DNA of 50,523 nt, from assembly GCF_002260525.1 (NCBI RefSeq), contig NZ_MRYI01000027.1:1-50523 (forward strand), given 5' to 3'. Shown one piece after another: positions 22,294-40,225 of the stretch. The stretch is from Hahella sp. CCB-MM4. Lineage in GTDB: Bacteria > Pseudomonadota > Gammaproteobacteria > Pseudomonadales > Oleiphilaceae. Both the position numbers and the translations under genes were made by a program. The notes under the pieces were generated by a model. The model did not search any database. It had not been told where the DNA came from and saw nothing but the letters and a program-made list of their open reading frames with translations. Position 1 is the stretch's first letter. Each line of letters begins with the position of its first letter.

Positions 22294-22953
22294 GTGAAAG
22301 ACAGCAACCTGAAAGCCCTGCTAGTAGACGATCACCCAATCGTAACGGAAGCCATAACCACGGCCCTTCTGGCCCTCAATATTTTTTCTGAAGCGACTGC
22401 AGTACGCAGCCTCGCGGAAGCGACGGAGTTTCTGGAGAGTAGTCCCTCTGTCGATCTGGTGATGCTCGATCTTCACCTTGAAGACACTCAGGGTGTCGAA
22501 GGCATGAGCACTTTGCGTGAAAAGTATCCGGATCTTCCCATTGTCATATTCTCAGGCGAAGAAGATCCTGCCATCATCGCCCAGTCCTTTGAATATGGTG
22601 TGAGGGGGTTTATACCCAAAAGCTCGAATGTGGACATTATTGTCAACGCGATTCGAATGGTAATGGCCGGAAGCAGCTATATTCCGCCAAACGCCATCCG
22701 GTTACTTGGTTTTGACCTTCCCCCGACAACGGTCAAACCCACTCCCCCACCTATGGAGAAACCGACATTCACACCCAGGCAGGAAGAAGTGTTGCATTGC
22801 CTGCTGAAAGGCATGCCCAACAAGGTTATTGCGGATCGGTTGGATATGGCGGAAGGTACGGTAAAAACTCATCTTGCCACGGTATTCAGAGTTCTCGGTG
22901 CCAAAAGCCGGGCTCAGGTTATTCTGAAAGCCCGGCAACTGGGAATGATCTAG
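22294..22953 (+). CDS. LuxR/NarL-family response regulator
   Basis: A 219-residue two-domain regulator. The receiver domain has the acidic pair Asp12-Asp13 (LLVDDHPIV), the phospho-acceptor Asp59 (VMLDLHLED) and the Lys in FIPKSS. The C-terminal LuxR helix-turn-helix reads FTPRQEEVLHCLLKGMPNKVIAD...GTVKTHLATVFRVLG. The start is GTG 22294. It is tail to tail with a hybrid histidine kinase gene (42 bases between stops), a likely partner. The kinase in turn is divergent from the large oxidoreductase-hydrolase-phosphatase gene, which is a candidate target. That link is inferred from position only. Confidence 0.92.
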   Translation: MKDSNLKALLVDDHPIVTEAITTALLALNIFSEATAVRSLAEATEFLESSPSVDLVMLDLHLEDTQGVEGMSTLREKYPDLPIVIFSGEEDPAIIAQSFEYGVRGFIPKSSNVDIIVNAIRMVMAGSSYIPPNAIRLLGFDLPPTTVKPTPPPMEKPTFTPRQEEVLHCLLKGMPNKVIADRLDMAEGTVKTHLATVFRVLGAKSRAQVILKARQLGMI

Positions 22954-22960
22954 CCTCACT

Positions 22961-22999
22961 CTGATTCACGGCCGGACATGGGTTCCAGCAGTGAATCAG
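22961..22999. terminator. Bidirectional hairpin between response regulator and kinase genes
   Basis: CTGATTCAC (22961-22969) pairs perfectly with GTGAATCAG (22991-22999) across 21 bases. It overlaps the kinase stop codon and follows the regulator stop by eight bases. A convergent terminator is plausible, although neither side has a long T-run. Confidence 0.4.
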
Positions 23000-24798
23000 T
23001 CCTGATCTGAGGGTTCAGGCTGTGCTATACGCGCAGAACGACCCGCCGTCATCATCCAGTAGATCAACCAGTCAAGGGATATTGGTTTACGAGCGTAGAT
23101 AAACGGGCTGCTGTCCAATGTCTGCAGCCGTTCAGGATCAGAGTTCCCAGTCATCAACAATATTCGTTTGGCTCCGATGAGAGGCATCAATTCTTCGGCC
23201 AGGTCCAGGCCACTTTCGTCATGACTTAACATATCATCCAGAATGACCAAATCAGGCAGGTTCTCAAATCGACCTTTTTTCTCCATGAAATCCTGCCGGG
23301 ATTCAAACATTTCAGCAGGACAATTCCATGCCTGGAACTGATGCCTAAGTGCATCACGCACCAAAGGTTCGTCTTCAAATATCCAAACTGACAATCCCGA
23401 TACCATTTCCGTTGATATTTGCGGTTGTTTTTCTTCCTTCACCGGCTTGATTAGCAGTGAGGCCGGACATTCAAAACTGAACTTTGTTCCCTGGTTCACT
23501 TTTGACGACATGTTCAGTTTCAATCCGAGCAGCTGGTTGATATGTTTGGTGATCGCCAGACCCAGACCCACACCCTTGGTTCTCAACCGATTGCTGTTAT
23601 TCAGTTGAACAAAGTCATCGAATACCCTTTTCTGATCAGCTTCAGCAATTCCACATCCGGTATCCGCCACTTCAAAGTAAGCCTTGTCGTCACGAAATAT
23701 GATATTCAGGCTCACTCCACCTTCATCGGTGAAATTGGTGGCATTGGTCAGCAGGTTTCTAACCACCCTCTGTAACAGATCCCGATCCGTCTGAACCGCC
23801 ACTGATGGATACTTCAGGGTCCAGGATATACCACGATTCGCACATATCACCGCAAACTCTTCATCGATGGGTGACAGAATCGATTCCAGCGAATAGCTTT
23901 CGATCTTGGGATCGATCTGACCGGAATCAAACTTGGAAAGATCCAGCAGATTATCAAACAGGCTCCTCAGTGCAGCGATGGAGGATTTCTGTTTTTCAAA
24001 TATCAGCTTTGCAGAATCGGGTAATGGCTGCAGCCCGAGAGTGTCGGTCAATATGGATAGCGCAAACAAGGGCTGTCTGAGGTCGTGGCTGGCTGCCGCC
24101 ATGAAGAAAGAGCGGGTCTGGTTAGCCTTCTGGGCAACGGTCAGGGCTTCTTCGGTTTTGGCTCTTTCGGCTTCGACCTGTTGCAGTAATCGTACATTCT
24201 CAAAACGCATCTTGAATGTGTCTTTCAGGCTGGCTTCTGAGCGCTTTACCAGATTCAGCATCATGAAAGACAGAAGAACGATTGAGGCAGAAATAATACT
24301 GCCCTGCCCCTCTTTCACCACCCAGAATATGAACGGTGGAATCATCAGCATGGGGAGTGAGTATTTGAACGATTTATAGTCATAGGAGAGATTGATCATA
24401 CACCCCATGCCGTGAAGCAACTGGGCCGCAGTGATAATATAGGCAGCATCTGTTGGAATCTCCCCCCAGCAAAGGGCTACCCCCAGCCCAACGCCCAATT
24501 GGGTCATCACACTACAAATCCTCAGATTTCTGTCTGCCGCCTTGATTTCTCCATTGCCTCGACGCTCAAAGTTCTTCATTATTCGAGCGCTTATCAGGTA
24601 ACGCCATCCTACCGTCAGCAGGATACCGCTTACCCAGAACAGCACGATGTGCACCGGGATATATTGCTCAAGCGCAAACAACATAATAAGAGCAATGAGG
24701 AACATGCTGAACAACGACGACCTGGTCTGCAGCGCTCTGATCTTGACAGACTCCCGCAACCAGGCGTTTTCAATCGAATGTGAGAAATGATTTTGCAT
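22996..24798 (-). CDS. Membrane hybrid histidine kinase with C-terminal receiver domain
   Basis: About 600 residues. The N-terminal third contains five to six transmembrane helices with short loops (e.g. SLFSMFLIALIMLFALE, IVLFWVSGILLTVGW, ASIVLLSFMMLNLV). A short coiled coil leads to the dimerisation domain with the phospho-His near 238 (AAASHDLRQPLFALS). The ATPase domain has N, G1 and G2 boxes (NLLTNATNFTDEG; DTGCGIAEAD; GVGLGLAIT). A receiver domain with Asp521 (LVILDDML) ends the protein. It probably senses a membrane or lipid-phase signal. I chose ATG 24798; upstream in-frame codons lack a convincing ribosome site. The 326-base gap to the next, divergent gene must hold both promoters; I saw no other feature there. 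Confidence 0.88.
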   Translation of the reverse strand: MQNHFSHSIENAWLRESVKIRALQTRSSLFSMFLIALIMLFALEQYIPVHIVLFWVSGILLTVGWRYLISARIMKNFERRGNGEIKAADRNLRICSVMTQLGVGLGVALCWGEIPTDAAYIITAAQLLHGMGCMINLSYDYKSFKYSLPMLMIPPFIFWVVKEGQGSIISASIVLLSFMMLNLVKRSEASLKDTFKMRFENVRLLQQVEAERAKTEEALTVAQKANQTRSFFMAAASHDLRQPLFALSILTDTLGLQPLPDSAKLIFEKQKSSIAALRSLFDNLLDLSKFDSGQIDPKIESYSLESILSPIDEEFAVICANRGISWTLKYPSVAVQTDRDLLQRVVRNLLTNATNFTDEGGVSLNIIFRDDKAYFEVADTGCGIAEADQKRVFDDFVQLNNSNRLRTKGVGLGLAITKHINQLLGLKLNMSSKVNQGTKFSFECPASLLIKPVKEEKQPQISTEMVSGLSVWIFEDEPLVRDALRHQFQAWNCPAEMFESRQDFMEKKGRFENLPDLVILDDMLSHDESGLDLAEELMPLIGAKRILLMTGNSDPERLQTLDSSPFIYARKPISLDWLIYWMMTAGRSARIAQPEPSDQD

Positions 24799-25124
24799 AA
24801 TGTGGTTGTTCAACTTAATGTTAGTCCCTATTGCCGACAGGCAGTCATTATCCCAGATCAGGCCTTCAATTTTGGTATCGGCATATTCGCCCGATGAATA
24901 ACTCGTCCAAATGGACAAGGCCTTATAAAAACTAAAACGTAATACCTTGCCGGAAACTCATAAATCGATAAACGGACTGTCGCCAGTGAACAACCGGTCG
25001 ACAGGCGGTTTTGTCGTTACCCTGTGGTTTCGACAAATCCATTAGGCATGGCAGAAAATCAACCGGGTACTGGCCTTTAAGAAGAACCATTCACATGGCA
25101 GCCAGTGAAAACAAGGAAACCACC

Positions 25125-28100
25125 ATGGAGTTATCTGACACTCAGATAAGTACTCCCGTAGAGTCATTAATTACCGGTCATAAATCCGGAGACATCATAC
25201 ACCAAGTCGACGTCCTCATCATCGGTTCAGGATATGGCGGATCCGTCGCCGCTTTCAGGCTTGCCCATCCGAATCGATCCGTGCTGGTACTGGAACGCGG
25301 GCAAGAATATCACCCTGGAGATTTTCCAAATGACCTGGGAAATATTCCTTCCCACATCAGACTACAATCCAATAACCGCAACGAACTGATTGGATATCCT
25401 GACGCACTCTTTGACATTAGACAGGGAGAAGGTCTGGACATTCTGGTGGGAAACGGCCTGGGAGGAACCTCCCTGATCAATGCCAACGTTGCGAAAAAGC
25501 CTGACTCTGCCTTATTCAAGCAGCCTCGATGGCCGGAAACGTTCAGGAAGGATCCTGAGATACTCGACGAAGCATTTGAACAAGTCAGTCATTGGTTAAG
25601 CGTTAAACCTGCACCAACAAATGTCTTCTATCAGCAAAAACAGGAAGACATTCAGAAATACCAGGCACTCAAGACTCTGGGCAAGGCACTGGAAAACAAC
25701 TGCCAGGTCAATCTGTCGCCGGCGGATCTATGTGTAACCTTCTCTGATGAAGCCCAACACCACTCCAACTCACCTAACGCCACAGCTGATGGATTGATTC
25801 GCAATAACGCCGGTCTTCATCAGCCTCCTTGTACCCACTGCGGCAATTGTGTGACCGGCTGCAATGTGGGCGCCAAAAACACTTTGATGACCAACCTGAT
25901 TCCCCTGGCCAGGACTCGCGGAGCTCAATTCTGTACCGGCGCAACCTGTCTCAGTATTCAACCCAGTGGGGACGACTCACATCGCTGGAAAGTTGAAATC
26001 GGCCGAACTTCCACGGCAAAACATCACTATCATCAGGAAACCTTTTACATTGCGGCAAATCGGGTCATTCTATCCGCTGGTACACTGGGTAGTACGGAAA
26101 TCCTTCAGCGGTCCCAAAAGGCCGGCTATCTCGCGCTATCGGATCAATTGGGCAAACACTTCTCCACCAATGGCGATGGCATTGCCTTTAGCTTTGGTCG
26201 TGCACATGAAGTCAATGGAATAGGTTCCCCTGACTATGCCGAAAATCAGCGGATAGGGCCAACGATTAATGGCGTCCTGCAGGTATGGTCCAATCCGGAC
26301 ACTCTTCCTATTACTATTGAAGATGGCGCGATTCCGTACAGCATGAGCAAAGTCTTCGGTGAAATTTTGACAACCTCTGCGCAGCTGCATCGGATCGGAA
26401 GCCGGGAAGTTCCCGAATTCTACCGCCGACATCGCGAGCAGGATATCCTGTCTTCGTCCTCTCTGGTGAAAGACCACTCTCAACTGCTACTGATCATGGG
26501 CGATGATGGTGCCAAGGGTGAGCTAAAGTTTTCACCAATGGAAAACTCCGCGGACGATCGCCAAGAGCCAGAGCTAAGCCAGTGGCATATCTACCCTTCC
26601 TGGCCTGAGGCTGCACTGAACCCCGCCTCGGTCAACGCGGACCATTATCTGAGAGAACTGAGCTTTCAGGCCGGATTTGACGGTGGACAGTATGTCCCGA
26701 ATCCTTTCTGGCAGATCATGCCCCTCTCAGCGAGCTCAGTGATGAGTGGAAAAATTCCGTCAGGACGGGCTATATCCGTTCATCCTCTGGGAGGATGCGG
26801 CATGGCGGATAATATATCAGATGGCGTTGTTAACGCTGACGGACAGGTTTACCGGGCAGACGGGAAACCCACCGAGATATATGAAGGACTCTACGTCATG
26901 GATGGTGCAATGCTGCCAACAGCAATTGGCGTCAATCCATTCCTCACCATATCTGCGCTGAGTTGGCGGGCTGCCACCGGGATTCTGCAAGAGGCAGGCT
27001 GGGAAGAGTCCTCCACCAGTCAGGCGAACAAAGCTTTTGATACTCTGAAGTTTCCCGTCCCAGTTAAGGCTGAAGAACAATCACCCACCATACTGCAATT
27101 CCGGGAACAGCTTGTCGGTCATTTTGATTCGGATTCAGACATCCCGGCGTGGCTGATTCAACAATTTGGGCCGGAAATAAATATTCTGCCCGACCGGATT
27201 ACCCAGTATCAGGGTCTCATCTTGAACCTTCGTTTTGATGTCAATGTTAACCAGTGGCTGGAAAATCCCGGGGATTTTGAACTGCCCGTCGAAGCCGAAT
27301 TACATGCCAACCGTATTCCAGCGGATGACATCAGCTTGATGCAAAGAGTCCTTGTTGATCAACAGCTGTGTGACTCAACCACACTGCTGACTCGACTTTC
27401 CGGAAAAGTAAAATTGCTGGAGCGACATGATATCAATCCGGTTAAAAAGACGTTCAGGGCGCTTAATGCCCTGGCGGCCTATCATGTCCGGCGCAAAAGC
27501 TTTTTTGACTATTTTGGCGACTATAGAGAAAGATCCGGCAGCCTAGGAAAGACATCCGGCAACGAGCGCCTTTCCCTGAAAGAATTGAATCAGCAGGCAA
27601 AAGGGTTCATCAACGTTGCGCTAATGCACACCGATTACCGGTACATGTCCTATGTGATGGAAAACAAGGACAGAAGTCTCATCCTTTCCGGTCAGAAAGA
27701 ACTAGCCTGGAGGTTGATGGGGAAATCCCTTTGGAACACCCTGCTTGAGCTTCCCATCAGTCTCAGTTCCCCCGGCAAACGAGGTAGGTTATCCGGTCAG
27801 CTCAGAGTGAACAGTGTCTCGATGCTTGAAGATATGTTGCCTCAGGTAAAGAGCATGCAGAATGGTCCGGAAATGTTCATGGACCTGGTTTCCCTTGGCG
27901 GTCTTGTTACCCGATCGATTCTTCAAACACATTTCTGGAGTTTCGGATCGCCGACATATCCCTTATCAAAGTTGCCCGTCGACACTATGCCCCAGGCACT
28001 TAGACTCGAAAATGGCGAAGAAATAGCGCCAACAGTCACTACCGTCGACGTTCAGATCAGCCGCACAAACCCTTCGTGTTTTCCCATGCGCCTCTGCTGC

Positions 28101-30728
28101 TATCGTCAAAACGCAGACAGCATGAGACCGGCCCCTGCAATACTTTTGGTCCACGGGCTCGCCCAAGGCAGCAGAATTTTTACGACCAATACCCTGTCCA
28201 ATAATATGGCCGCCTATTTCTACCAGCACGGATACCACGTCTGGACGGTAGACTATCGCCTGAGTAATGCACTGCCTTCGAAGGTTCCCCAAGGAGACTG
28301 GGCCATCGATGAAATTGCTGCATTGGATATGACGGCGGCAGTGAATCACATTTATCAGCAAACAGAACAACCCATACACATTTTTGCCCACTGCGTCGGC
28401 GCGACGGCTGTTGCCATGAGTATGCTAAAAGGGAATCTCGATAAAGAACGGGTGAAAAGCGTGACATTTAACGCCATACATCCGTGGGTGATTCCGTCCG
28501 CAGCAAACAGAACCAAAGCGAAAATAGGCACAGCCGTCAAATATTGGTTCGATGACCAGTTTCTTGATCCCCTTCCCTGCCAGGAAGACAGTGTCGCCAG
28601 ACAGCTCCTGGACCGTCTGGCGTTCACCGTTGCCAGACTCGACGAAGAAGCGAGCGATATCCACTCCCCTCAGGGAGGAGATGATCAGGACCAGGCCATC
28701 TGTGATCGTATGACCTTCTTCTACGGCCGCATGTGGCGACATTCCAACCTGGCCTGCCACACCCACGATGACTTCAGCAATATTGTGGGGGCAGCTCCCG
28801 GAGACGTATATCGCCACCTGTTCTATTTCGCCAGCCGCTATCAAATCACAGACAAACGTGGCGCTAATGTTTACCTGAAAGGCGATAACCTCAAGAAGTT
28901 TTCCGGCATTAAAACCCTGTTTATCCATGGTGAAGACAGTCAGGTATTCAACCCTTACTCGGCAACCATTTCTGCCGTACGGTTCAGTGAGGCGAATCCG
29001 GAGACAGATATTCGCCTAAAACGAATTCCAGGCTATGGGCATATGGACATTGTTTTCGCCAATAAAGCGGATAGAGATGTCTTCCCGGTAATTCGCAGTT
29101 TTATGGAACGAAATTCCAGTACGGAAAGCCTGCAATCAGATCAGGTTGAGTTTGACCCGCTGTTGCTGAGCCCTTTTCATCGTTGGCTGAGTCCACCAAC
29201 CGTCACTGTCGGACCTATTCTGCGTGGTGCCCGAAAATCAGGCCAGGCCATCAGCATTCGCTTATGGGCGGAAACCAATGATATTGATCAGGCAACGCTT
29301 CCAGGTCTTTCGGTAGTCTGTGAACACGGAGAGCGGGAATTCCCTCACTTCCAGGAAAGAAGTACGGCCCATCTGGCCTACATATTTGATATCGAAAACT
29401 ACAACGACATGGATTTTCAGCTAACAACCATGGGCAACCAGGATAAAGGTCCCGAAACCGTTGCCCGCCTGAACCTCCATACTGACTGGCGCTGGCTTGA
29501 GCGCATGAGACAACCAGATGCCACCCGGAATTCCTTTAATTTTCTGGTAGGTTCCTGCCGATATCCGGGTACACCATTTGAACGCGAGATCTCTGACCGG
29601 ATTTTTGACGTGATGTACCGCCAGCTTTCAGCGGCGGATGGACCCGACAAGATATTCTTCATTGGTGATCAGATTTACGCCGATGCCACAGCCAATCTGC
29701 TACCGGCAGAGCCCGCGTCTGAATATTACACCGGCCGCTATCGTAGTGCGCTGTCGAGTCCCAATATCAGAAAACTGCTTGGCGCAATTCCGACACACTT
29801 TGCGATTGATGACCACGAGTTCAGCGACAATTGGTCGGGACATTGGCCAGACAGCATGCCTGATCAGAAACTGGCCTTTGAGGATGCCCGCTCTGCCGCC
29901 CTTTATTTCCTTGGGGATTACCGGCAGGTAGACAGCAGTTCATCAGAGGATAATCTCCAACAGTCGCTGGTTAATCATCGACCAACACTCTGGTATCCGC
30001 TGCAGACAGGCGATGAATCCGTTTGCCCCGTGTTTATTACCGATACCCGCAGCGAGCGCCAGTTTCGCCAGATCGGCAGCGAAAGAACCGCACACATGAT
30101 CAGTGAAGACAGACAACTTCCTGAGCTGATTAACTGGCTGATAGAAAGTCAGGCGAGCTATCCGGCCCATCCCAAATTTATCTTCTCCGGGAGTGTGATG
30201 GCTCCTCTTAGTAAAAAGCTGTGCACCTTCCCCGAATTGTGGCTCGACCAGGATGACTGGCTGGGATATCCCGCCACTCTCGCCAGAGTGATCGAGACCA
30301 TTGTAGAAAACCAAATACAGAATGTGATCTTTGTGGGCGGAGATCTGCACATATCCTCCATCTCCCGCCTATCTTTCCATCATACCGGCCATAAGTCCGT
30401 AACAGCCTGGCAGCTGGTTTCCTCAGGGCTCTATGCTCCACTCCCCTTCACTGCGACAAAACCTGCTGAAGTAGACTGGGACGGTTGCAGTCGCATCGAG
30501 CTCCCGGGGTATCCTGATATCCGCCTGGACTGTGAGTCAACACTTCTGACCACGCATTTCTCCCACTTCGTCAGCGTCAATGCCTGGCTGGGCGATTCCT
30601 GTCGTTGGAATCTGCGGCTTAAGACCGTTAACCATGAAGATCATTTGCTGTCCCCTGAGAGTTCACTGCATGAGTGGCTAATCCCGGGTAGTGACGGGAG
30701 CTATGAAATTCACCTGAGCGCACCTTAA
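25125..30728 (+). CDS. Three-enzyme fusion: GMC oxidoreductase, alpha/beta hydrolase, PhoD-like phosphatase
   Basis: One uninterrupted frame of 1867 residues. The N-terminus is a cholesterol-oxidase-type GMC flavoenzyme: FAD motif GSGYGG (34-39), a Cys cluster C236-x2-C239-x2-C242-x3-C246, catalytic His553 in HPLGGCG and Asn604 in GVNPFLT. About 650-1000 is an unassigned linker domain. An alpha/beta hydrolase follows: LLVHGLAQGS, nucleophile elbow AHCVGA with Cys1090 instead of Ser, Asp1271 and His1306 (PGYGHMD). The C-terminus is PhoD-like: GSCRYPGTPF (Cys1478), GDQIYAD (Asp1515), IDDHEFSDN (1562-1564) and VGGDLHIS. No signal peptide is seen. ATG 25125 has AAGGA seven bases upstream and is preferred over 25095. 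Substrate unknown; a sterol, other lipid alcohol or phospho-ester is suggested by family only. Confidence 0.9.
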   Translation: MELSDTQISTPVESLITGHKSGDIIHQVDVLIIGSGYGGSVAAFRLAHPNRSVLVLERGQEYHPGDFPNDLGNIPSHIRLQSNNRNELIGYPDALFDIRQGEGLDILVGNGLGGTSLINANVAKKPDSALFKQPRWPETFRKDPEILDEAFEQVSHWLSVKPAPTNVFYQQKQEDIQKYQALKTLGKALENNCQVNLSPADLCVTFSDEAQHHSNSPNATADGLIRNNAGLHQPPCTHCGNCVTGCNVGAKNTLMTNLIPLARTRGAQFCTGATCLSIQPSGDDSHRWKVEIGRTSTAKHHYHQETFYIAANRVILSAGTLGSTEILQRSQKAGYLALSDQLGKHFSTNGDGIAFSFGRAHEVNGIGSPDYAENQRIGPTINGVLQVWSNPDTLPITIEDGAIPYSMSKVFGEILTTSAQLHRIGSREVPEFYRRHREQDILSSSSLVKDHSQLLLIMGDDGAKGELKFSPMENSADDRQEPELSQWHIYPSWPEAALNPASVNADHYLRELSFQAGFDGGQYVPNPFWQIMPLSASSVMSGKIPSGRAISVHPLGGCGMADNISDGVVNADGQVYRADGKPTEIYEGLYVMDGAMLPTAIGVNPFLTISALSWRAATGILQEAGWEESSTSQANKAFDTLKFPVPVKAEEQSPTILQFREQLVGHFDSDSDIPAWLIQQFGPEINILPDRITQYQGLILNLRFDVNVNQWLENPGDFELPVEAELHANRIPADDISLMQRVLVDQQLCDSTTLLTRLSGKVKLLERHDINPVKKTFRALNALAAYHVRRKSFFDYFGDYRERSGSLGKTSGNERLSLKELNQQAKGFINVALMHTDYRYMSYVMENKDRSLILSGQKELAWRLMGKSLWNTLLELPISLSSPGKRGRLSGQLRVNSVSMLEDMLPQVKSMQNGPEMFMDLVSLGGLVTRSILQTHFWSFGSPTYPLSKLPVDTMPQALRLENGEEIAPTVTTVDVQISRTNPSCFPMRLCCYRQNADSMRPAPAILLVHGLAQGSRIFTTNTLSNNMAAYFYQHGYHVWTVDYRLSNALPSKVPQGDWAIDEIAALDMTAAVNHIYQQTEQPIHIFAHCVGATAVAMSMLKGNLDKERVKSVTFNAIHPWVIPSAANRTKAKIGTAVKYWFDDQFLDPLPCQEDSVARQLLDRLAFTVARLDEEASDIHSPQGGDDQDQAICDRMTFFYGRMWRHSNLACHTHDDFSNIVGAAPGDVYRHLFYFASRYQITDKRGANVYLKGDNLKKFSGIKTLFIHGEDSQVFNPYSATISAVRFSEANPETDIRLKRIPGYGHMDIVFANKADRDVFPVIRSFMERNSSTESLQSDQVEFDPLLLSPFHRWLSPPTVTVGPILRGARKSGQAISIRLWAETNDIDQATLPGLSVVCEHGEREFPHFQERSTAHLAYIFDIENYNDMDFQLTTMGNQDKGPETVARLNLHTDWRWLERMRQPDATRNSFNFLVGSCRYPGTPFEREISDRIFDVMYRQLSAADGPDKIFFIGDQIYADATANLLPAEPASEYYTGRYRSALSSPNIRKLLGAIPTHFAIDDHEFSDNWSGHWPDSMPDQKLAFEDARSAALYFLGDYRQVDSSSSEDNLQQSLVNHRPTLWYPLQTGDESVCPVFITDTRSERQFRQIGSERTAHMISEDRQLPELINWLIESQASYPAHPKFIFSGSVMAPLSKKLCTFPELWLDQDDWLGYPATLARVIETIVENQIQNVIFVGGDLHISSISRLSFHHTGHKSVTAWQLVSSGLYAPLPFTATKPAEVDWDGCSRIELPGYPDIRLDCESTLLTTHFSHFVSVNAWLGDSCRWNLRLKTVNHEDHLLSPESSLHEWLIPGSDGSYEIHLSAP

Positions 30729-31182: not shown

Positions 31183-32637
31183 ATGACACAAACAACAATA
31201 AAATTTTTACTGAATAATGAGCTACATAGCGTCGAAAACTTCGACCCGAACACCACTGTACTCAACTACCTGCGTAACGATTTAAACCGCTGTGGAACCA
31301 AAGAAGGCTGCGCCTCCGGTGACTGCGGCGCCTGTACTGTCGTGGTGGGGGAATTGGAGAACGGCAAAGTCAGATACAAGTCGATCAATTCCTGCATTAC
31401 TTTCCTGCCAGCCTTACACGGCAAACAGCTTCTCACGGTAGAAGATCTGAAACAGGGTGACCAGCTACACCCGGCACAGCAAGCCATAGTGGACTGTCAC
31501 GGTTCACAGTGCGGATTCTGCACTCCCGGCTTTGTCATGTCCCTGTATGCACTGAACAAAAACCACCCTTCCCCGTCAAAAGATGAAGCCATGGAAGCCT
31601 TGTCAGGGAACTTGTGTCGTTGTACCGGATATCGCCCCATTGTCGATGCTGCCCTCAATATGGGTAGTTATCCCAGTTGCCAGACCACCGAGCCCTCAAC
31701 CACTGAACAGCTGCAAGCCATCAATGACGGTTGCACCGCAACACTCTCCAATAGTGTTTCACATTACTTTTCGCCAACCTCCATTGATGAACTGGCTCAA
31801 CTACTGATCGATTATCCAAAAGCCCGACTGCTTGCCGGGGGAACCGATCTGGCGTTGGAGGTCACCCAGTTTCATCGGGATTTGAGTACCATTGTTTATG
31901 TCGGCAATGTGGCTGAACTTAAGACGGTCACTGAAACCGAAAGCTCCCTGGTTATCGGTAGCGCGGTAACTTACAACCAGTGTGTTGAAAGATTAGAGCA
32001 GGAATACCCTGAACTGGGCGAGATGATAGAGCGCTTGGGCTCACTGCAAATCCGTAACCAGGGAACCATCGGCGGCAACATTGGCAACGCCTCCCCGATA
32101 GGCGATATGCCACCGGTCTTAATTGCCCTGGACGCCACAATGACTCTTCGCCGGGGCCATAACACCCGCACCATAAAAGTGGCTGACTATTTCCACGACT
32201 ACAAAGTCACTGACCTGAAACCAAACGAATTCATCCAGTCCATAGAAGTTCCCAAAGCCAAGCCCGGACATGTGTTGAAAATCTATAAGATTTCCAAGCG
32301 AATCGATGACGATATCTCCGCCATACTGGGAGCACTCTATTTCCACATCGAAAATCAAAAAGTACAAACATTCACCGCCGCATTTGGTGGCATGGCCGCC
32401 ATCCCAAAACGGGCTCTTCACTGTGAGGCCGCTTTACAAGGGCAACCCTGGAATGAGCTCAATGTCGAATCCGCTATGCAAGCCCTGGAGCTGGATTTCA
32501 AACCACTGAGCGATGTTCGTGCCTCCGCCGAATATCGTATGGACGTGGCAAAAAACCTTCTGATGAAGAGTTTCCTTGAAATCAATCAATCCGTAGGACA
32601 ACAAAAAACAGCAACAAGGGTGACCGGCTATGCGTAA
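31183..32637 (+). CDS. xdhA: Xanthine dehydrogenase small subunit (2Fe-2S and FAD)
   Basis: XdhA carries the electron-transfer cofactors of xanthine dehydrogenase, which oxidises hypoxanthine and xanthine to urate with NAD. The 484-residue product has the first 2Fe-2S cluster ligands Cys43, Cys48, Cys51 and Cys71 (EGCASGDCGAC), the second cluster Cys110, Cys113, Cys145 and Cys147 (QCGFC; LCRC) and a FAD domain (LLAGGTDLALEV; IRNQGTIGGNIGNASPIGD). This is the standard bacterial two-subunit XdhA layout. Its last 8 bases overlap xdhB. It is the first gene of the purine cluster, directly behind the palindromic operators. Confidence 0.96.
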   Translation: MTQTTIKFLLNNELHSVENFDPNTTVLNYLRNDLNRCGTKEGCASGDCGACTVVVGELENGKVRYKSINSCITFLPALHGKQLLTVEDLKQGDQLHPAQQAIVDCHGSQCGFCTPGFVMSLYALNKNHPSPSKDEAMEALSGNLCRCTGYRPIVDAALNMGSYPSCQTTEPSTTEQLQAINDGCTATLSNSVSHYFSPTSIDELAQLLIDYPKARLLAGGTDLALEVTQFHRDLSTIVYVGNVAELKTVTETESSLVIGSAVTYNQCVERLEQEYPELGEMIERLGSLQIRNQGTIGGNIGNASPIGDMPPVLIALDATMTLRRGHNTRTIKVADYFHDYKVTDLKPNEFIQSIEVPKAKPGHVLKIYKISKRIDDDISAILGALYFHIENQKVQTFTAAFGGMAAIPKRALHCEAALQGQPWNELNVESAMQALELDFKPLSDVRASAEYRMDVAKNLLMKSFLEINQSVGQQKTATRVTGYA

Positions 32638-35017
32638 TCTGACTGACCTCAACCGCATCACGAAAATGTCAAAGGAACAGCACAAGGGCGGTGTCGGCGC
32701 TTCGAGCAAACATGAAAGCGCCACCAAACATGTGACTGGTGAAGCTATCTATGTGGACGACCGCACCGATCACGTCAATCAGCTCCATGCTGCGATCGGG
32801 AAAAGCCAAATCGCCCATGGGCGGATCAAAAATCTTGATCTGTCTGCAGTGTTGGCCGCACCTGGTGTTGTCAAAGTCATTACAGCCGAAGATGTGCCTG
32901 GCCACCTGGATATTGGCCCGGTATTCCCCGGTGATCCGGTTTTGGCGAAGGACCTGGTTGAATATTACGGTCAGCCGATATTTGCCGTGGCTGCCAAGAC
33001 CCATGAACAAGCCTGGCGCGCAGCTCAACTGGCAAAGATTGAATATGAAGAATTGCCGCCGGTCTTGGATGTAGAAACGGCTCTGGCACAACAAAATTTC
33101 GTCCGTCCTCCCCATTCTATGCAGCGCGGCGATGCGGACCAAGCCATCGAAGATGCGCCTCATGTATTGGAAAGTCATTTGTCGGTTGGTGGTCAGGAGC
33201 ACTTTTACCTGGAGGGTCAGGTTTCCTCAGCCATTCCCACAGAAGACGGCGGAATGATGATCTATACCTCCAGCCAGCACCCATCTGAAGTTCAGAAGCT
33301 GGTCGCTGAAGTTCTGGGCATTCCGTTCAATCTGGTAACCATCGATATGCGTCGTATGGGAGGTGGTTTCGGCGGCAAGGAAACCCAGGCAGCTCCCTGG
33401 GCCTGTATTTCCGCCCTGTTGGCACACATCACCAGACGACCGGTCAAGCTGCGCCTCAACCGAGGGGATGACATGGTCATGACAGGCAAACGTCACCCCT
33501 TCGAAAATGGCTACCGTATCGGGTTTGATGACGACGGTAGAATTCTGGGGGCAGATATTATCGTCAATGGTTTCTGTGGTTACTCGCCGGATTTATCTGA
33601 TGCGATTGTTGACCGCGCTATGTTCCACTCTGATAACGCTTATTATCTGGATCAAGTCAAAATCGTCGGCAACCGCTGTAAGACCAATACGGTTTCCCAC
33701 ACAGCATTTCGCGGCTTTGGCGGACCTCAGGGCATGATGACCATTGAATATGCCATGGACGATATTGCCCGCTATCTGGGCAAAGATCCTTTGGAAATCC
33801 GCAAGCTCAACCTTTACGGCCAGGACTCTCGCAATGTCACGCCTTATCACCAGGTGGTGGAACACAATGTACTGCCGGAGATGATCGAACGGCTGGAGCA
33901 GACTTCCAACTATCAGCAACGCCGCCAGCAAATTCGCGAATTCAATCAGAATAACCGCATTCTGAAACGAGGCATTGCTTTGACGCCGGTGAAATTCGGT
34001 ATTTCATTTACCGTGCAGCACCTGAATCAGGCCGGCGCGCTCATCCATATTTACACCGACGGCAGCATCCACCTGAACCATGGCGGCACCGAAATGGGCC
34101 AAGGCCTGTTTACCAAAGTGGCTCAGGTCGTGGCAGAAGAGTTCCAGGTGGACCTGGACACCATCAATGTGTCTGCTACACGGACAGACAAGGTTCCCAA
34201 TACTTCACCAACAGCGGCCTCCTCCGGCACTGACCTGAACGGTAAAGCCGCCCAGAATGCCGCCAGAAACATCAAACAACGGTTAATAGATTTCATCGTC
34301 CAACATCATGGTGTAGAAGCCTCAGAAATTGTTTTTGCGGACAACCGGGTTCACTTCGGTGATCAATCCATAAGCTTCGCGGAGCTGGCACAGCTAGCCT
34401 ACGTTAATCGGATATCCCTCTCCTCCACCGGTTACTACCGGACCCCAAAGATCCATTACGACCGCAACAAAGCTTCCGGACGTCCGTTTTTTTATTTTGC
34501 CAACGGTGCGGCAGTGTCCGAAGTCATCGTCGATACGCTGACCGGAGAATACAAATTGCTGCGCACCGACATCCTTCACGATGTGGGCCACTCATTGAAT
34601 CCGGCGATCGATATCGGCCAGATTGAAGGAGGCTTCATCCAGGGCATGGGCTGGCTGACGTCTGAAGAACTGTCCTGGGCCGACAACGGCCGCTTACAGA
34701 CCACAGGACCTGCCACCTACAAAATCCCGGCCGTCAGCGATATGCCGGCAGATTTCCGGGTACAGCTGTTCGATCAACGTAACCGTGAAGCCACCATCTA
34801 CAACTCCAAAGCCGTGGGAGAGCCGCCTTTTATGCTCGCTATGTCGGTATGGTCTGCCTTGAGAGATGCGGCTTCCAGTGTGGCGGACTACCGCTTCAGC
34901 CCTCCTCTGGACACTCCTGCAACACCTGAACGGGTATTAAAAGCGGTCAAGGCCACCAAGCAATTCCAGACGAATGCAACCACCAGGATTCAGGCTGAGG
35001 AAGAGGTAACGGCATGA
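32630..35017 (+). CDS. xdhB: Xanthine dehydrogenase large subunit (molybdenum)
   Basis: The 795-residue subunit binds the molybdenum cofactor and the purine. Visible family motifs are GMGGGFGGKE-type (RRMGGGFGGKETQAAPWA), AFRGFGGPQGM, GGTEMGQGLFTKVAQV and the catalytic glutamate in GEPPFMLAMSVWSALRDA. The start ATG overlaps xdhA (AAGGGTGA lies upstream at a good distance) and the stop overlaps the allantoinase ATG by four bases, so the three genes are probably translationally coupled. The usual third gene, xdhC (cofactor insertion), is missing here; allB follows directly. The enzyme should be cytoplasmic. Confidence 0.96.
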   Translation: MRNLTDLNRITKMSKEQHKGGVGASSKHESATKHVTGEAIYVDDRTDHVNQLHAAIGKSQIAHGRIKNLDLSAVLAAPGVVKVITAEDVPGHLDIGPVFPGDPVLAKDLVEYYGQPIFAVAAKTHEQAWRAAQLAKIEYEELPPVLDVETALAQQNFVRPPHSMQRGDADQAIEDAPHVLESHLSVGGQEHFYLEGQVSSAIPTEDGGMMIYTSSQHPSEVQKLVAEVLGIPFNLVTIDMRRMGGGFGGKETQAAPWACISALLAHITRRPVKLRLNRGDDMVMTGKRHPFENGYRIGFDDDGRILGADIIVNGFCGYSPDLSDAIVDRAMFHSDNAYYLDQVKIVGNRCKTNTVSHTAFRGFGGPQGMMTIEYAMDDIARYLGKDPLEIRKLNLYGQDSRNVTPYHQVVEHNVLPEMIERLEQTSNYQQRRQQIREFNQNNRILKRGIALTPVKFGISFTVQHLNQAGALIHIYTDGSIHLNHGGTEMGQGLFTKVAQVVAEEFQVDLDTINVSATRTDKVPNTSPTAASSGTDLNGKAAQNAARNIKQRLIDFIVQHHGVEASEIVFADNRVHFGDQSISFAELAQLAYVNRISLSSTGYYRTPKIHYDRNKASGRPFFYFANGAAVSEVIVDTLTGEYKLLRTDILHDVGHSLNPAIDIGQIEGGFIQGMGWLTSEELSWADNGRLQTTGPATYKIPAVSDMPADFRVQLFDQRNREATIYNSKAVGEPPFMLAMSVWSALRDAASSVADYRFSPPLDTPATPERVLKAVKATKQFQTNATTRIQAEEEVTA

Positions 35018-36381
35018 TCTCAGTGACAGACAGAATCGCCTTGCGCAGCCAGAGAGTCCTGACACCTCAGGGTATCAGGCCCGCTATTGTGGAGATCAAC
35101 AATGGGCGCATTGTGGCATTACATGATGTTGATAGCACCATGGAATGTCCGGTGAAGGATCTCGGCAACCTGGTCATCATGCCCGGTCTGGTGGATACCC
35201 ATGTTCATATCAATGAACCAGGACGTACCGAATGGGAAGGCTTTAACACTGCAACTCAAGCCGCTGCTGCCGGAGGCATCACCACCCTGGTGGACATGCC
35301 CCTGAACTGCATCCCGGTCACAACAACCAAAGCAGCGTTTGAGGAAAAGCTGGCATCTGTTGAAGACAAGCTCTGGGTAGACTGTGGCTTTTGGGGCGGT
35401 GTGACTCCCGACAACCTGGATGATCTGGACGAACTATTGGCAGCCGGCGTTCTCGGGGTTAAATCATTCCTGATAGATTCCGGTATTGAGGAATTTCCGC
35501 CGGTCACAGAAGGCGATATCAATCGTGCCATTCCAATTCTGGCAAAGTACCAGGCGCCTTATCTGATTCACGCGGAACTGGACCAGGATCACTCTCCTGC
35601 TCCTGAAATCGGTAATGCCTATCAAAGCTTTCTACAATCCCGCCCTAAACACTGGGAGAACGAGGCCATCAACTTGATGATCCGTCTGGGTCAGGAAGCC
35701 AGAAAGCAAGGATATGACGGCCATATCCACATTGTGCATCTGTCTTCTGCCGAAGCATTAAAGGCCATCTCTGAGGCAAGAAACTCGGGCCTCAAATTCA
35801 CGATTGAAACCTGTCCACACTACCTGACGTTATTCGCCGAAAGTATTCCAGACGGTAAAACCCTGTTCAAATGCTGTCCGCCAATCCGGGAAGACAGCAA
35901 CCGTGAACAACTGTGGCAAGGCCTGAAAGACGGTTTGATTGATTTTATCGTCTCGGATCATTCGCCATGCACACCACAGCTTAAACACATCGACAGCGGC
36001 GATATCGAAAAAGCGTGGGGCGGAATTTCCGCGCTGCAATTTGGCTTACCCCTGATCTGGACAGAAGCACGCCAGCGTGGAATGAGCCTGGAAACGGTTT
36101 CCCACCTGATGGCCACTGCTACGGCGGACTTTATCGGCCTGGGACACAAGAAAGGGCGAATCGCTCCAGGATATCAGGCAGATCTTCTGATTTTCGATCC
36201 GGAAGCGGAATACGAAATTACAACGGACATGATCAAACATCGACACAAGATCACGCCTTATGAAGGGAAAAAAGTCTTTGGAGAAATCCAGCAGACCTAC
36301 CTTCGCGGGGAGATAGTGTATGACCAGGGGCAGTTTTCGCAGGGACCCATGGGGAAACCGATCCTGAGAGATCAGCGATAG
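35014..36381 (+). CDS. allB: Allantoinase
   Basis: Allantoinase opens the hydantoin ring of allantoin to give allantoate. The 455-residue amidohydrolase has the metal site VDTHVHINEPGRTEWEGF, the Lys to be carboxylated in GVLGVKSFLIDSG, further ligands in HLSSAEAL and TCPHYLTL, and the Asp in IVSDHSPCTPQLK. The length is normal. AllB-type features (NEPGRTEWEG; DSGIEEFPPV) separate it from dihydroorotase and hydantoinase. It overlaps xdhB by four bases (ATGA) and is followed after 57 bases by alc. Confidence 0.95.
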   Translation: MISVTDRIALRSQRVLTPQGIRPAIVEINNGRIVALHDVDSTMECPVKDLGNLVIMPGLVDTHVHINEPGRTEWEGFNTATQAAAAGGITTLVDMPLNCIPVTTTKAAFEEKLASVEDKLWVDCGFWGGVTPDNLDDLDELLAAGVLGVKSFLIDSGIEEFPPVTEGDINRAIPILAKYQAPYLIHAELDQDHSPAPEIGNAYQSFLQSRPKHWENEAINLMIRLGQEARKQGYDGHIHIVHLSSAEALKAISEARNSGLKFTIETCPHYLTLFAESIPDGKTLFKCCPPIREDSNREQLWQGLKDGLIDFIVSDHSPCTPQLKHIDSGDIEKAWGGISALQFGLPLIWTEARQRGMSLETVSHLMATATADFIGLGHKKGRIAPGYQADLLIFDPEAEYEITTDMIKHRHKITPYEGKKVFGEIQQTYLRGEIVYDQGQFSQGPMGKPILRDQR

Positions 36382-36438
36382 ACAATATGCGAGAAAGAAA
36401 ATTTCTTGAGTTTAGCTAATACGAATATCGGAAAAATT

Positions 36439-37467
36439 ATGACAAACCACACCACTCCAACTAATGAATACTCCAGCCAATATATCGACCTGGTATCCGA
36501 AAGAGTCGGCGGCGAAACCATCGCCTGTAGCGATGACTTTTTCGCCGAGATGGAAAACCTGATCAAACCCGGTCGCGGTGTGTTCATCGATGACAAATAT
36601 ACCGAACGCGGTAAATGGATGGATGGCTGGGAATCTGCCCGCAGCTACGGTCGTGATAATGGCCGTGACCATGACTGGTGTATCCTGCGCCTGGGAATTC
36701 CTGGTGTCATCCGCGGTATCGATGTGGACACCAACCATTTCCGCGGAAACGCTCCCCTGTCCGTCTCCATGGAAGCCTGTGCTTGTGATGGTGAGCTGAC
36801 AGACAACGCCGAGTGGGTAGAAATCCTAACTCAATCTGATGTCGAGCCCCACAGCCAGAACCTGTTCAAAATTAAGAGCGATTCTGCCTGGACACATGTT
36901 CGTCTGCGTATTTATCCCGACGGTGGCGTTGCCCGCCTGCGCATTTACGGCGACCCACAAATTTCCTGGAACAATTTCCTTCCCGGTGAGCTGATCGACC
37001 TGGCCTCAATCAAAAACGGCGGCCGCGCAATTCTATGCAGCGATATGTTCTTCAGCGACAAAAACAACCTGCTGATGCCGAACCGTGGCGTCAACATGGG
37101 AGACGGCTGGGAAACCAAACGCCGTCGCGACGGCAAGAATGACTGGGTGATTGTGAAACTTGCTGCCGCCGGATCAGTCAACAAAGTGCTCATCGACACC
37201 AATCACTTTAAGGGTAACTTCCCGGATACTTTTTCCCTGGAAGGTATCGTCAGTAGCGATGACAACTTCGGTGACGGCGCGGAAGGAAAAAATGCGGAGT
37301 GGCAGACCATTATTCCCAAGACCAAACTGCATGCTCACCGGGAGCATCTATTCATCAACGAAATTCAATCCTCCTCTGAACAACAGTTTACGCACGTACG
37401 CTTGAATATCTTCCCTGACGGCGGTGTCAGCCGTATGCGTGTTTACGGATACCGTAAGGAGGACTAA
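36439..37467 (+). CDS. alc: Allantoicase
   Basis: Allantoicase splits allantoate into S-ureidoglycolate and urea. The product of about 342 residues consists of two tandem copies of the family's jelly-roll domain. Each copy shows CSD(D/M)FF near its start, a NLxxPxRG segment, DGWE(S/T)xR, a DW block (HDWCILRLGIPG; NDWVIVKLAAAG), DTNHF(R/K)GN(A/F)P and a closing VRLxIxPDGGVxRxRxYG. I chose ATG 36439 with GGAAAA before it; an in-frame TTG lies 33 bases upstream. The uraD gene starts three bases after its stop and its ribosome site (AAGGAGG) lies inside the end of alc. Use of allantoicase rather than allantoate amidohydrolase means nitrogen leaves as urea. Confidence 0.95.
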   Translation: MTNHTTPTNEYSSQYIDLVSERVGGETIACSDDFFAEMENLIKPGRGVFIDDKYTERGKWMDGWESARSYGRDNGRDHDWCILRLGIPGVIRGIDVDTNHFRGNAPLSVSMEACACDGELTDNAEWVEILTQSDVEPHSQNLFKIKSDSAWTHVRLRIYPDGGVARLRIYGDPQISWNNFLPGELIDLASIKNGGRAILCSDMFFSDKNNLLMPNRGVNMGDGWETKRRRDGKNDWVIVKLAAAGSVNKVLIDTNHFKGNFPDTFSLEGIVSSDDNFGDGAEGKNAEWQTIIPKTKLHAHREHLFINEIQSSSEQQFTHVRLNIFPDGGVSRMRVYGYRKED

Positions 37468-37469
37468 TC

Positions 37470-37970
37470 GTGGGACTCGAAACAGTTAATCAACAATCCA
37501 TGGAAGAAGCACGTCACACCTTTATGCAGTGCTGCACGTCTTCCGCCTGGGTTGAACGCATGGCTGCCAGCCGGCCATACATGGGCGCGGAGAGCCTTTT
37601 CAAGATCGCCGATCGACACTGGGCTGAACTGGGAGAATCCGATTTTCTAGAAGCCTTTGAAGGCCACCCCAAGATTGGTGACGTCAACAGTCTTCGCGCC
37701 AAATATGCCAATACCAAAGCGCTGGCTGGAGCCGAACAGTCAGGCGTGAACGTCGCAACGGATGAAACTCTGAAAGCACTCGCGGACGGAAACACAGCCT
37801 ATGAAGAAAAGTTCGGCTTTATCTTCATCGTTTGCGCCACTGGTAAAAGTGCCGAAGAGATGCTGGAACTGCTGAACCAGCGTCTGCCAAATGACCGTGA
37901 CACCGAGCTGCGTAACGCCGCAGAAGAACAACGTAAAATCACTCGAATTCGTTTGGAAAAATTAGTATGA
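37470..37970 (+). CDS. uraD: OHCU decarboxylase
   Basis: UraD decarboxylates 2-oxo-4-hydroxy-4-carboxy-5-ureidoimidazoline to S-allantoin, the last step of the uricase branch. The 166-residue helical product has the key block FEGHPKIGDVNSLRAKYA with the catalytic His, SxxEQxGV-type (GAEQSGVNVA), YEEKFGFIFIVCATGKSAEEML and R-rich closing RKITRIRLEKL, all typical. It begins at GTG 37470 with AAGGAGG eight bases before it and overlaps uraH by four bases (ATGA). It is a stand-alone protein here, not fused to UraH or PuuE. Confidence 0.95.
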   Translation: MGLETVNQQSMEEARHTFMQCCTSSAWVERMAASRPYMGAESLFKIADRHWAELGESDFLEAFEGHPKIGDVNSLRAKYANTKALAGAEQSGVNVATDETLKALADGNTAYEEKFGFIFIVCATGKSAEEMLELLNQRLPNDRDTELRNAAEEQRKITRIRLEKLV

Positions 37971-38308
37971 GCCAGATCACGACCCATATCCTGGATACTA
38001 CACGCGGCTGTCCCGCCTCCGAAGTGCCGATTGTTTTAAGTCAGATGACGGATGACGGTTGGAAGCAAATTGCCGAAGGACATACCAATCACGATGGTCG
38101 AATTGGTAAGTTATTGGAAGTGGGGCGAGTGCTGGATTCAGGCTGCTACCGTATGCACTTCGATACCCAAGCCTATTTCAAAAGCAACGGTGATCCGGTG
38201 TTTTATCCCTTCGTGGATATCGTCTTCCAGATAACCGGTAATGGGCAGCATTACCATATTCCGCTCCTGCTAGCCGCTTACGGCTACTCCACCTATCGGG
38301 GGAGCTGA
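37967..38308 (+). CDS. uraH: 5-hydroxyisourate hydrolase
   Basis: UraH (transthyretin-like protein) hydrolyses 5-hydroxyisourate, the product of urate oxidation, to OHCU. The 113-residue protein starts with ITTHILDTTRGCPA, contains the conserved DGRI (NHDGRIGKLLE), FYPFVDIVF and HYHIPLLLAAYGYSTYRGS, ending in the YRGS motif that defines HIU hydrolases as opposed to vertebrate transthyretin. It lacks a signal peptide, so it is cytoplasmic. It overlaps uraD by four bases and is followed after one base by allA. Confidence 0.96.
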   Translation: MSQITTHILDTTRGCPASEVPIVLSQMTDDGWKQIAEGHTNHDGRIGKLLEVGRVLDSGCYRMHFDTQAYFKSNGDPVFYPFVDIVFQITGNGQHYHIPLLLAAYGYSTYRGS

Positions 38309-38309
38309 A

Positions 38310-38819
38310 ATGACCGGTCGCGTTGTTACTCCACAACCCCTCACCCGCGAGGCATTTGCACCTTATGGTGATGTGATCGAAATTCACGATCAGGCCAAAG
38401 TCCTGGAGATCAACCAGGGCTATACCCAACGCTTTCACGATCTTGCCAATGTTGACGTGGCGGCTCAGGGTGGCAGGCCCTTGATCAACATTTTCCGTTC
38501 CACTCCACTTCCAAGTCCCCTTTTATTGGAAGTGATGGAACGGCACCCTCTATCCAGCCAGGCGTTTATTCCGCTGAACCAGCGCCCTTATCTGGTGGCA
38601 GTGGCTGCGCCGGGTGAGCTGGATCCCCGGGAAATCCAGGTCTTCCTGGCAGGCCCGAATCAAGGGGTCAATTATCACAAAGGAACCTGGCACCACTTCT
38701 GCCTGGCATTGGATGAAGTCAGCGATTTTCTGGTGGTCGACCGGGGTGGTGAAGGTGACAACTGTGACGAAGTCATACTCAGTCTCGATCAAGTCATAAC
38801 GATAAATCTGGAGGACTAA
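38310..38819 (+). CDS. allA: Ureidoglycolate lyase
   Basis: AllA converts ureidoglycolate to glyoxylate and urea, completing the path. The 169-residue cupin-type product begins with PLTREAFAPYGDVIE, and has F..HDLANVDV, NIFRSTP, MERHPLSSQAFIPL, YLVAVA, FLAGPNQGVNYHKGTWHHFCLAL and LVVDRGGEGDNCDE, which are the family's signature blocks, including the GV.Y..GTWHH segment. The start lies one base after the uraH stop (TGAA-ATG) and the stop one base before the guaD ribosome-site-linked start, so it is in the middle of a tight operon. Confidence 0.95.
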   Translation: MTGRVVTPQPLTREAFAPYGDVIEIHDQAKVLEINQGYTQRFHDLANVDVAAQGGRPLINIFRSTPLPSPLLLEVMERHPLSSQAFIPLNQRPYLVAVAAPGELDPREIQVFLAGPNQGVNYHKGTWHHFCLALDEVSDFLVVDRGGEGDNCDEVILSLDQVITINLED

Positions 38820-38821
38820 AC

Positions 38822-40147: not shown

Positions 40148-40150
40148 CCT

Positions 40151-40177
40151 GTAGGGGCGAACCTATGTGTTCGCCCT
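40151..40177 (+). repeat. Palindromic hairpin element between guaD and puuD
   Basis: GGGCGAAC (40155-40162), loop CTATGT, GTTCGCCC (40169-40176), with the flanking GTAG(G) on the left. No T-run follows on the plus strand. The sequence resembles the dispersed GTAGGGGCGAAC-type palindromes I recall from intergenic regions of many bacterial genomes. It may be a mobile palindrome, an mRNA-stabilising hairpin or a partial terminator in the operon. Confidence 0.6.
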
Positions 40178-40225
40178 AAAAAACGAACAAGAATAAGTCT
40201 AACAAGAAACCCGGAGGTAGCCGCT

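Follow-up and report, generated by a model that had tools for sequence, protein, structure and literature searches.

What could require a flavoenzyme, a hydrolase and a phosphoesterase to be carried on one polypeptide? The question is raised by a gene of Hahella sp. CCB-MM4 (RefSeq assembly GCF_002260525.1, genome size 6.66 Mb), situated in a stretch of 50,523 nucleotides (contig NZ_MRYI01000027.1, positions 1 to 50,523) that was analysed as a whole and is here called the window. An earlier note on this DNA reported one open frame encoding three enzymes and guessed that their activities are functionally linked. In the present study we describe the modules of this fusion protein, its relatives, and the arrangements in which the same parts are found in other bacteria. 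We lean slightly towards regarding the protein as the single-chain version of a multi-gene module that processes a hydrophobic phosphorylated or acylated alcohol, with a kinase and regulator pair encoded beside it. No description of the fusion was found in the literature searched, outside which most subscription papers lay, in keeping with the earlier remark that the addition of a PhoD domain is undescribed.

One intact frame encodes four modules

The gene and its parts are as follows.

25125..30728, + strand: fusion gene, 1867 residues, GMC - LINK - alpha/beta-hydrolase - PhoD (open frame, motifs, Pfam, relatives)
25113..25117, + strand: likely ribosome-binding site AAGGA, 7 bases ahead of ATG 25125 (read from the sequence)
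25200..26987, + strand: GMC flavoenzyme domain, residues about 26-621, with GSGYGG and HPLGGC (PF00732 and PF05199 above cut-off; cholesterol oxidases are the nearest solved chains)
25830..25862, + strand: CX2CX2CX3C motif, residues 236-246, candidate iron-sulphur (Fe-S) cluster site (motif search, ligand spacing)
27087..28079, + strand: LINK domain, residues about 655-985 (unnamed in Pfam; modelled as a beta-barrel; a stand-alone gene elsewhere)
28080..29144, + strand: alpha/beta-hydrolase domain, residues about 986-1340, nucleophile C1090, His H1306 (Pfam, alignment, fold matches)
29145..29528, + strand: N-terminal part of the PhoD unit, residues about 1341-1468 (GPI...RLWA, resembling the GPIVGHTT...RLWIR with which separate PhoD genes start)
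29529..30704, + strand: PhoD metallophosphoesterase domain, residues about 1469-1860 (Pfam, alignment, fold matches)

The frame is free of stops from the ATG to the stop codon that ends at 30728. TTG 25011, 38 codons upstream, is a possible alternative start; the ATG is preferred because AAGGA, the strong ribosome site of the earlier note, precedes it and because the starts of relatives align with it. Pfam profiles follow one another in the order GMC_oxred_N, GMC_oxred_C, Abhydrolase_1 and PhoD, all above their cut-offs, and every active-site motif named earlier was found again (GSGYGG, HPLGGCG, AHCVGA, GSCRYPG, GDQIYAD and IDDHE). The frame is not split by a frameshift, an outcome that the earlier note had allowed for: full-length frames are present in five of six other genomes of the genus, at 42-69% identity, and the sixth (G003) gave partial matches only. 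The fusion is thus confirmed as a real, conserved multi-enzyme protein encoded in one intact frame. Simple hydropathy gave no membrane segment, and no hydrophobic export start was seen at the N terminus by hydropathy and inspection, a signal-peptide program not being used; action in the cytosol is therefore expected.

Residue conservation was read from an alignment of the C-terminal halves of 43 of 57 non-duplicate three-domain frames classed among the fetched loci (L numbers; genomes carry G numbers). The 14 frames left out were L032, L034, L075, L084, L121, L123, L132, L134, L173, L182, L183, L184, L189 and L190. L108, L131 and L145 had been dropped as copies of L032, L081 and L084 before the kinase, residue, tree, Cys-motif and pattern counts.

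GMC oxidoreductase membership of the first module follows from both profiles (42.7 bits against a cut-off of 23 for GMC_oxred_N, PF00732; 39.2 against 24.6 for GMC_oxred_C, PF05199), the flavin adenine dinucleotide (FAD) motif and HPLGGC. Its earlier description as cholesterol-oxidase-like stands in so far as cholesterol oxidases are the nearest solved chains (PDB 3cnj and 1b4v) and supply the best NCBIfam model, but the equivalog model NF058674 reaches 164 bits against a cut-off of 850, for which reason a sterol-oxidase reading was rejected. Unlike cholesterol oxidase, the module carries the CX2CX2CX3C motif, is fused and shows no export signal. The motif is present in 54 of 57 fusions, in all 17 two-domain proteins and in all nine separate GMC frames; of the exceptions, L084 and L111 carry it on the other piece of a split GMC, and L134 has none in the frame read. 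Within it, the spacing C-X5-C-X3-C is that of the 3Fe-4S ligands Cys212, Cys218 and Cys222 of the BcGDH alpha subunit, as given in PMC6719666. Unlike BcGDH, which works in a complex with a hitchhiker subunit, the fusion has a fourth Cys, C239, inside the motif. The spacing makes the motif a candidate site for an Fe-S cluster.

The third module belongs to the alpha/beta-hydrolase fold by profile (Abhydrolase_1, 35.6 bits against 25.8) and by Foldseek matches. C1090 and H1306 are invariant (43/43), and a pattern search recovered the Cys in all 57 fusions, after His in 55 and after Gln in L085 and L184, so that the nucleophile is a Cys. The separate hydrolases of split gene sets read HCLG or HCQG at this place, and one from Cytophagales reads HCIG. 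Gastric and lysosomal acid lipases (1k8q, 6v7n), enzymes with a Ser nucleophile, are the best structural matches; the fusion hydrolase differs from them in having Cys at that place in every aligned sequence, and is accordingly not placed among serine lipases and esterases. Current annotation of the Ensifer fusion protein says only 'alpha/beta fold hydrolase'. Together, the Cys nucleophile and the four-Cys motif of the GMC module suggest, from conservation, a chemistry other than that of a plain Ser lipase or oxidase.

PhoD family membership of the C-terminal module is clear (PF09423, 86.3 bits against 27). C1478, D1515, Y1518, D1562, D1563, H1564, D1740 and H1742 are invariant in the alignment (43/43), and some of these we take to be the metal ligands. 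GDQxYxD and DDH(E/A) occur together in 56 of 57 fusions, the exception being L084. A PhoD alkaline phosphatase (PDB 2yeq) is the best structural match of the C-terminal model, with the candidate metal residues kept. In contrast to exported PhoD alkaline phosphatases, this unit is C-terminal, fused and without a visible export signal; the corresponding model NF058638 scores 23.4 against 1000 bits, and the chain has no hydrophobic start.

Between the GMC and hydrolase modules, no Pfam family matches residues about 650-985. The earlier note called this region an uncharacterised linker; it is indeed without a Pfam assignment, but it is a conserved domain, also existing as a gene of its own, and not a mere linker. 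A LINK profile grown from four separate LINK genes found the inter-domain region in 16 of 16 two-domain proteins and in 57 of 58 three-domain rows, which include the three duplicates and on which the profile was itself iterated. In the phylum sample, LINK is present in 9 of 398 genomes. The model of the stand-alone LINK of L171 (predicted local distance difference test, pLDDT, 94.8; predicted template-modelling score, pTM, 0.89) has a beta-barrel and a C-terminal helix, the barrel being our reading of the strand order. In the window, LINK shows the same strands with a helical insert (LINK, hydrolase and PhoD model, pLDDT 83.8, pTM 0.84). LINK is an unnamed conserved domain family in its own right, confidently modelled as a beta-barrel. 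Foldseek candidates for its fold (MppR, lipocalin and others) were weak, with TM-scores of at most 0.36 among the best 50 of 630 rows, and were not used.

Further LINK frames were noticed. On contig 74 of the window's own genome (G000; L219:6714-9225), a second, weaker LINK frame adjoins a GMC gene with an apparent twin-arginine start (RRTFLK), and a gene with a tocopherol-cyclase match under cut-off comes after the pair. At L170:8558-10186, a 543-residue frame with LINK at its end lies behind the three-gene set described below, and hydrolase-like pieces come after it on the opposite strand.

The same parts occur as separate genes

In other bacteria the modules are distributed over two to five genes. 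The simplest arrangement is a GMC-LINK-hydrolase gene adjoining a PhoD gene (L128, L130, L159, L160, L181, L146 and L204; weakly L104). These two-domain proteins, of 1131-1491 residues, have the same order of GMC, LINK and hydrolase as the fusion; they are without a PhoD domain, and where a phosphoesterase is present it is a neighbouring gene. PhoD, GMC-LINK and hydrolase form three genes in L170. Four genes, PhoD, LINK, GMC and hydrolase, are found in Desertibaculum (L150), in Halomonas (L156, L165 and L174) and in two metagenome-assembled genomes (MAGs), one alphaproteobacterial (L161) and one deltaproteobacterial (L171); the LINK genes of L161 and L174 are whole.

A phosphoesterase of another family can stand in the place of PhoD. 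The GMC-LINK-hydrolase gene adjoins a calcineurin-type PF00149 phosphoesterase above cut-off in L087, L088, L091, L106 and L202, and Azospirillum (L191) is a weak case. In L089 and L168 the PF00149 gene is one gene further away, behind a RoxA-like cytochrome gene, and in L168 a PhoD gene follows behind that. The cytochrome c genes (L089:9209-11140 and L168:4442-6331) may encode an electron acceptor. This substitution suggests that a phosphoesterase step, rather than PhoD as such, belongs to the module. Five genes (hydrolase, acetoacetate-decarboxylase-like, patatin plus LINK, GMC and phosphoesterase-like) are seen at L207:6844-13723 and L221:3315-10237, the phosphoesterase-like genes falling just under cut-off (21.4 and 18.0 against 21.5 bits). 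L220 has hydrolase, patatin plus LINK, and a frame whose start resembles that of the decarboxylase-like one. No paper was found on the acetoacetate-decarboxylase-like and patatin-LINK cluster of L207 and L221.

Since retrieval of the scanned loci relied on PhoD peptide patterns, the frequency of a PhoD neighbour at these loci is a biased measure. To limit this bias we counted 13 genomes whose two-domain gene had been picked up by way of the hydrolase (G470, G440, G543, G216, G312, G379, G257, G109, G408, G1088, G991, G826 and G1061); the profile behind the count also held PhoD, and in G826 both parts matched. A phosphoesterase lies beside the two-domain gene in 8 of the 13: G470, G440, G543 (behind a cytochrome gene), G312, G408, G1088, G826 and, weakly, G257. 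These genomes, of 2.8-7.8 Mb, have few such genes overall (3-15 PF00149 matches in 12 genomes, 0-4 PhoD matches in 13), so 8 of 13 looks far above chance, a judgement made without a formal test.

Candidates for further shared pathway genes (exonuclease VII, AbrB, a major facilitator superfamily transporter, TRAP DctM, the RoxA-like cytochrome, a glycerophosphate-oxidase-like gene and DUF6765) disagreed across the lineages of the split forms and were set aside.

Distribution and history of the fused form

The fusion is scattered and not common. Matching frames of at least 1880 residues were found in 11 of 390 genomes of the order and in 4 of 369 of the class, the window's own genome included in both and one of the four having PhoD partly in another frame; in the phylum sample the only match was the own genome (1/398). 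A genome of another family, G056, has a 2008-residue version at 26% identity. A wider locus scan by PhoD peptide patterns gave at least 589 stretches and at least 444 relatives, of which the best 80 were kept. Carriers among these 80 include Halioglobus, Acidovorax, Polaromonas, Ramlibacter, Massilia, Undibacterium, Pseudacidovorax, Pseudohongiella, Granulosicoccaceae and a Nitrospirae MAG with GMC in two frames. Frames in two pieces were seen at L084:8121-13540, L111:6056-11876 and L075:6-6765, and a Hydrogenophaga MAG has a 3763-residue frame (L125:3-11294) that ends in LINK-hydrolase-PhoD and has no GMC match.

Megaplasmids of Ensifer carry the fusion as well: at least 80% of the protein is covered in seven plasmid records, each of them from Ensifer. 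Among viral contigs, no relative of the whole protein and a single weak one of the C-terminal half were found, and a phage origin was rejected on this ground. Pfam gave no mobile-element families in the 20 frames scanned of the window's 41 frames of at least 150 residues.

A tree of 85 hydrolase domains, built from this part alone by a quick method with midpoint rooting and branch support from the approximate likelihood-ratio test SH-aLRT only, places 59 fused rows within a 61-row clade (SH-aLRT 100). It has nine long branches and five rows of odd composition; L125 was left out, and two frames truncated at contig ends, L086 and L129, were treated as fused. Nested in the clade are two non-fused rows: the two-gene form L146, and L172, a gene from Cytophagales that encodes LINK and hydrolase and has PhoD as its neighbour. 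All remaining two-domain forms, and likewise the sets of three and four genes, fall on the opposite side of the tree. This topology is consistent with a single fusion that was rarely split again and that spread from lineage to lineage.

A sensor kinase and regulator beside the gene

Two regulatory genes, which the earlier note did not mention, precede the fusion gene in the window.

22996..24918, - strand: hybrid sensor histidine kinase, divergent from the fusion gene (HisKA, HATPase and receiver after hydrophobic segments)
22294..22953, + strand: LuxR-type response regulator (nearest NCBIfam model ErdR, under cut-off)

By simple hydropathy the kinase has three hydrophobic segments in its first 230 residues, ahead of its HisKA, HATPase and receiver domains. 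Neighbours were counted at thresholds of at least 150 bits within 2.5 kb for the kinase and at least 100 bits within 3.5 kb for the regulator, at loci with at least 3.5 kb of flank on both sides of the fusion; L084, whose GMC frame is split, and L111, in which GMC spans two frames, were counted as fused. The kinase is present at 41 of 45 evaluable fusion loci, and kinase and regulator together at 31. Two-domain loci have both in 3 of 12 cases and no kinase in 9. At control loci with unfused PhoD, a set that includes the PhoD genes of split sets, the kinase was found in 5 of 37 and the pair in none (0/37). The kinase profile was built from 20 kinases of the window and of L029-L107; among the evaluable fusion loci outside this seed set, which include near copies of seed genomes, it detects a kinase at 25 of 29.

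NahK/ErcS-type kinases and ErdR provide the best NCBIfam models, at 239.4 bits for the kinase core (cut-off 400) and 132.2 bits for the regulator (cut-off 390), so that the pair is like these systems and falls outside both families. The NahK/ErcS model match starts at kinase residue 264 and leaves the input half uncovered, which sets the kinase apart from them. Papers on the NahK/ErcS and ErdR systems deal with ethanol and acetate metabolism. A large nucleotide-cyclase protein is encoded divergently at the place of the Hahella kinase in Ensifer (L189:4603-8613) and in G826 (L204:13386-17465), and that of L204 also carries an AAA ATPase domain.

Directly downstream of the fusion gene, 31183-41437 holds a purine and urate breakdown cluster (molybdopterin dehydrogenase subunits, amidohydrolases, allantoicase, OHCU decarboxylase, ureidoglycolate lyase and a urate oxidase N-terminal family protein). 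In L030 the frames after the fusion are similar to this cluster in length, the only property compared.

What the fused enzyme may do

That the parts are encoded side by side as separate genes elsewhere makes it probable that they cooperate, in a pathway that is undescribed and perhaps lipid-related. These separate-gene versions and the shared neighbour kinase are good evidence for the functional link guessed in the earlier note, whose interpretation is thereby supported in part; its sterol or lactone substrate, its sequence of oxidation, cleavage and dephosphorylation, and its channelling stay at the level of suggestions. In the scheme we favour, the PhoD unit would cleave a phosphoester, the Cys hydrolase would break or transfer an acyl group (ester or thioester) by way of a covalent acyl-Cys, and the GMC unit would oxidise the freed hydroxyl with FAD, its electrons leaving through the putative Fe-S cluster. 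The LINK barrel may serve to bind the hydrophobic intermediate, and the kinase and LuxR-type regulator would probably turn the gene on upon a substrate or membrane cue. The computation itself establishes the four modules with their invariant catalytic residues, the fused form and the forms of two to five genes, the neighbour kinase and the main clade of fused proteins; we infer the reactions and their order, the cluster, the lipid nature of the substrate, the role of LINK and control by the kinase pair.

A number of observations weigh against this scheme. The kinase is missing at 4 of the 45 loci (L115, L186 and the near-identical Ensifer L189 and L190), and no regulator was detected at 14. 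In five of the 13 genomes picked up by way of the hydrolase, the two-domain gene has no neighbouring phosphoesterase; in addition, the neighbour in G257 is under the Pfam cut-off and not in the whole-genome PhoD list, and those in G440 and G543 pass the cut-off as proteins and are absent from the whole-genome PF00149 list. Further neighbours differ between lineages and point to no pathway. Two invariant residues, D1163 and D1068, are candidates for the uncertain catalytic acid of the hydrolase, and the usual acid site, position 1271, varies. Foldseek gave no LINK match in PDB at E <= 0.001, and for want of a reliable match LINK as a carrier barrel is a guess. The CX2CX2CX3C motif is shared by 9 of 10 other GMC frames of the own and related genomes, and therefore marks a subfamily and not the fusion. 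The lipid idea itself derives from the lipase-like fold, from patatin-LINK genes in three genomes, from two genomes with a RoxA-like cytochrome and from the hydrophobic input part of the kinase.

The same conserved Cys could serve synthesis. Polyhydroxyalkanoate (PHA) synthases are acyltransferases with a Cys nucleophile, and a Cys is found in all fusions, whether aligned or read by pattern, and in the separate hydrolases read; acetyltransferases are among the structural matches of the domain, and the class III PHA synthase model TIGR01836 gives a weak match (16.3 bits, E 0.0036). The Cys hydrolase would then be an acyltransferase building a membrane or storage lipid, and PhoD would dephosphorylate an intermediate. 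We think this unlikely: the match lies far under the cut-off of 365.3 bits, leaving the domain outside that family, and the best structural matches are lipid-ester hydrolases. Assembly or frameshift error that joined neighbouring genes, or a chain with dead domains, has next to no chance of being the explanation and was ruled out. Nothing in the window favours it, split frames being confined to a few relatives (L084, L111 and L075), and intact frames in five of six sister genomes and in many other families, with invariant catalytic residues, speak against it.

Two further explanations seem to us improbable, and about equally so. The three activities might be needed together under one regulator as a matter of dosage, with no shared substrate and no channelling, as would be compatible with the occurrence of the parts as separate genes and with the different gene orders of operons and fusion; recurrence of the set with a PF00149 phosphoesterase replacing PhoD, and the position of LINK between GMC and hydrolase in nearly every fused row, fit one pathway better. 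Alternatively, the enzyme might make or destroy the signal sensed by the adjacent kinase, which would make the set a signalling module and not a catabolic one. The closeness of kinase and regulator, the hydrophobic kinase input and the nucleotide-cyclase proteins in the same divergent place in Ensifer L189 and in L204 would suit such a role, but a catabolic gene would equally be expected to have a dedicated regulator, the kinase is missing from 9 of the 12 two-domain loci that could be evaluated, and the listing for the three- and four-gene loci contains none above 150 bits.

Significance

New here are the multi-gene forms of the set, LINK as a family of its own, the neighbour kinase and a hydrolase tree in which the fused proteins make up a single main clade. 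The work ties the PhoD-type phosphoesterase, the GMC dehydrogenase and the Cys alpha/beta-hydrolase into one likely functional unit, of which annotation names one part. In the fused form the whole set can be tested with a single clone or a single deletion, and the fusion provides a handle on LINK, which no Pfam model matched, and on the adjoining kinase and regulator pair. More tentatively, and short of an even chance in our view, many bacteria may possess an undescribed lipid-processing or lipid-making pathway, here condensed into one enzyme with its own membrane sensor, in which LINK would represent a new fold family carrying the intermediate between active sites.

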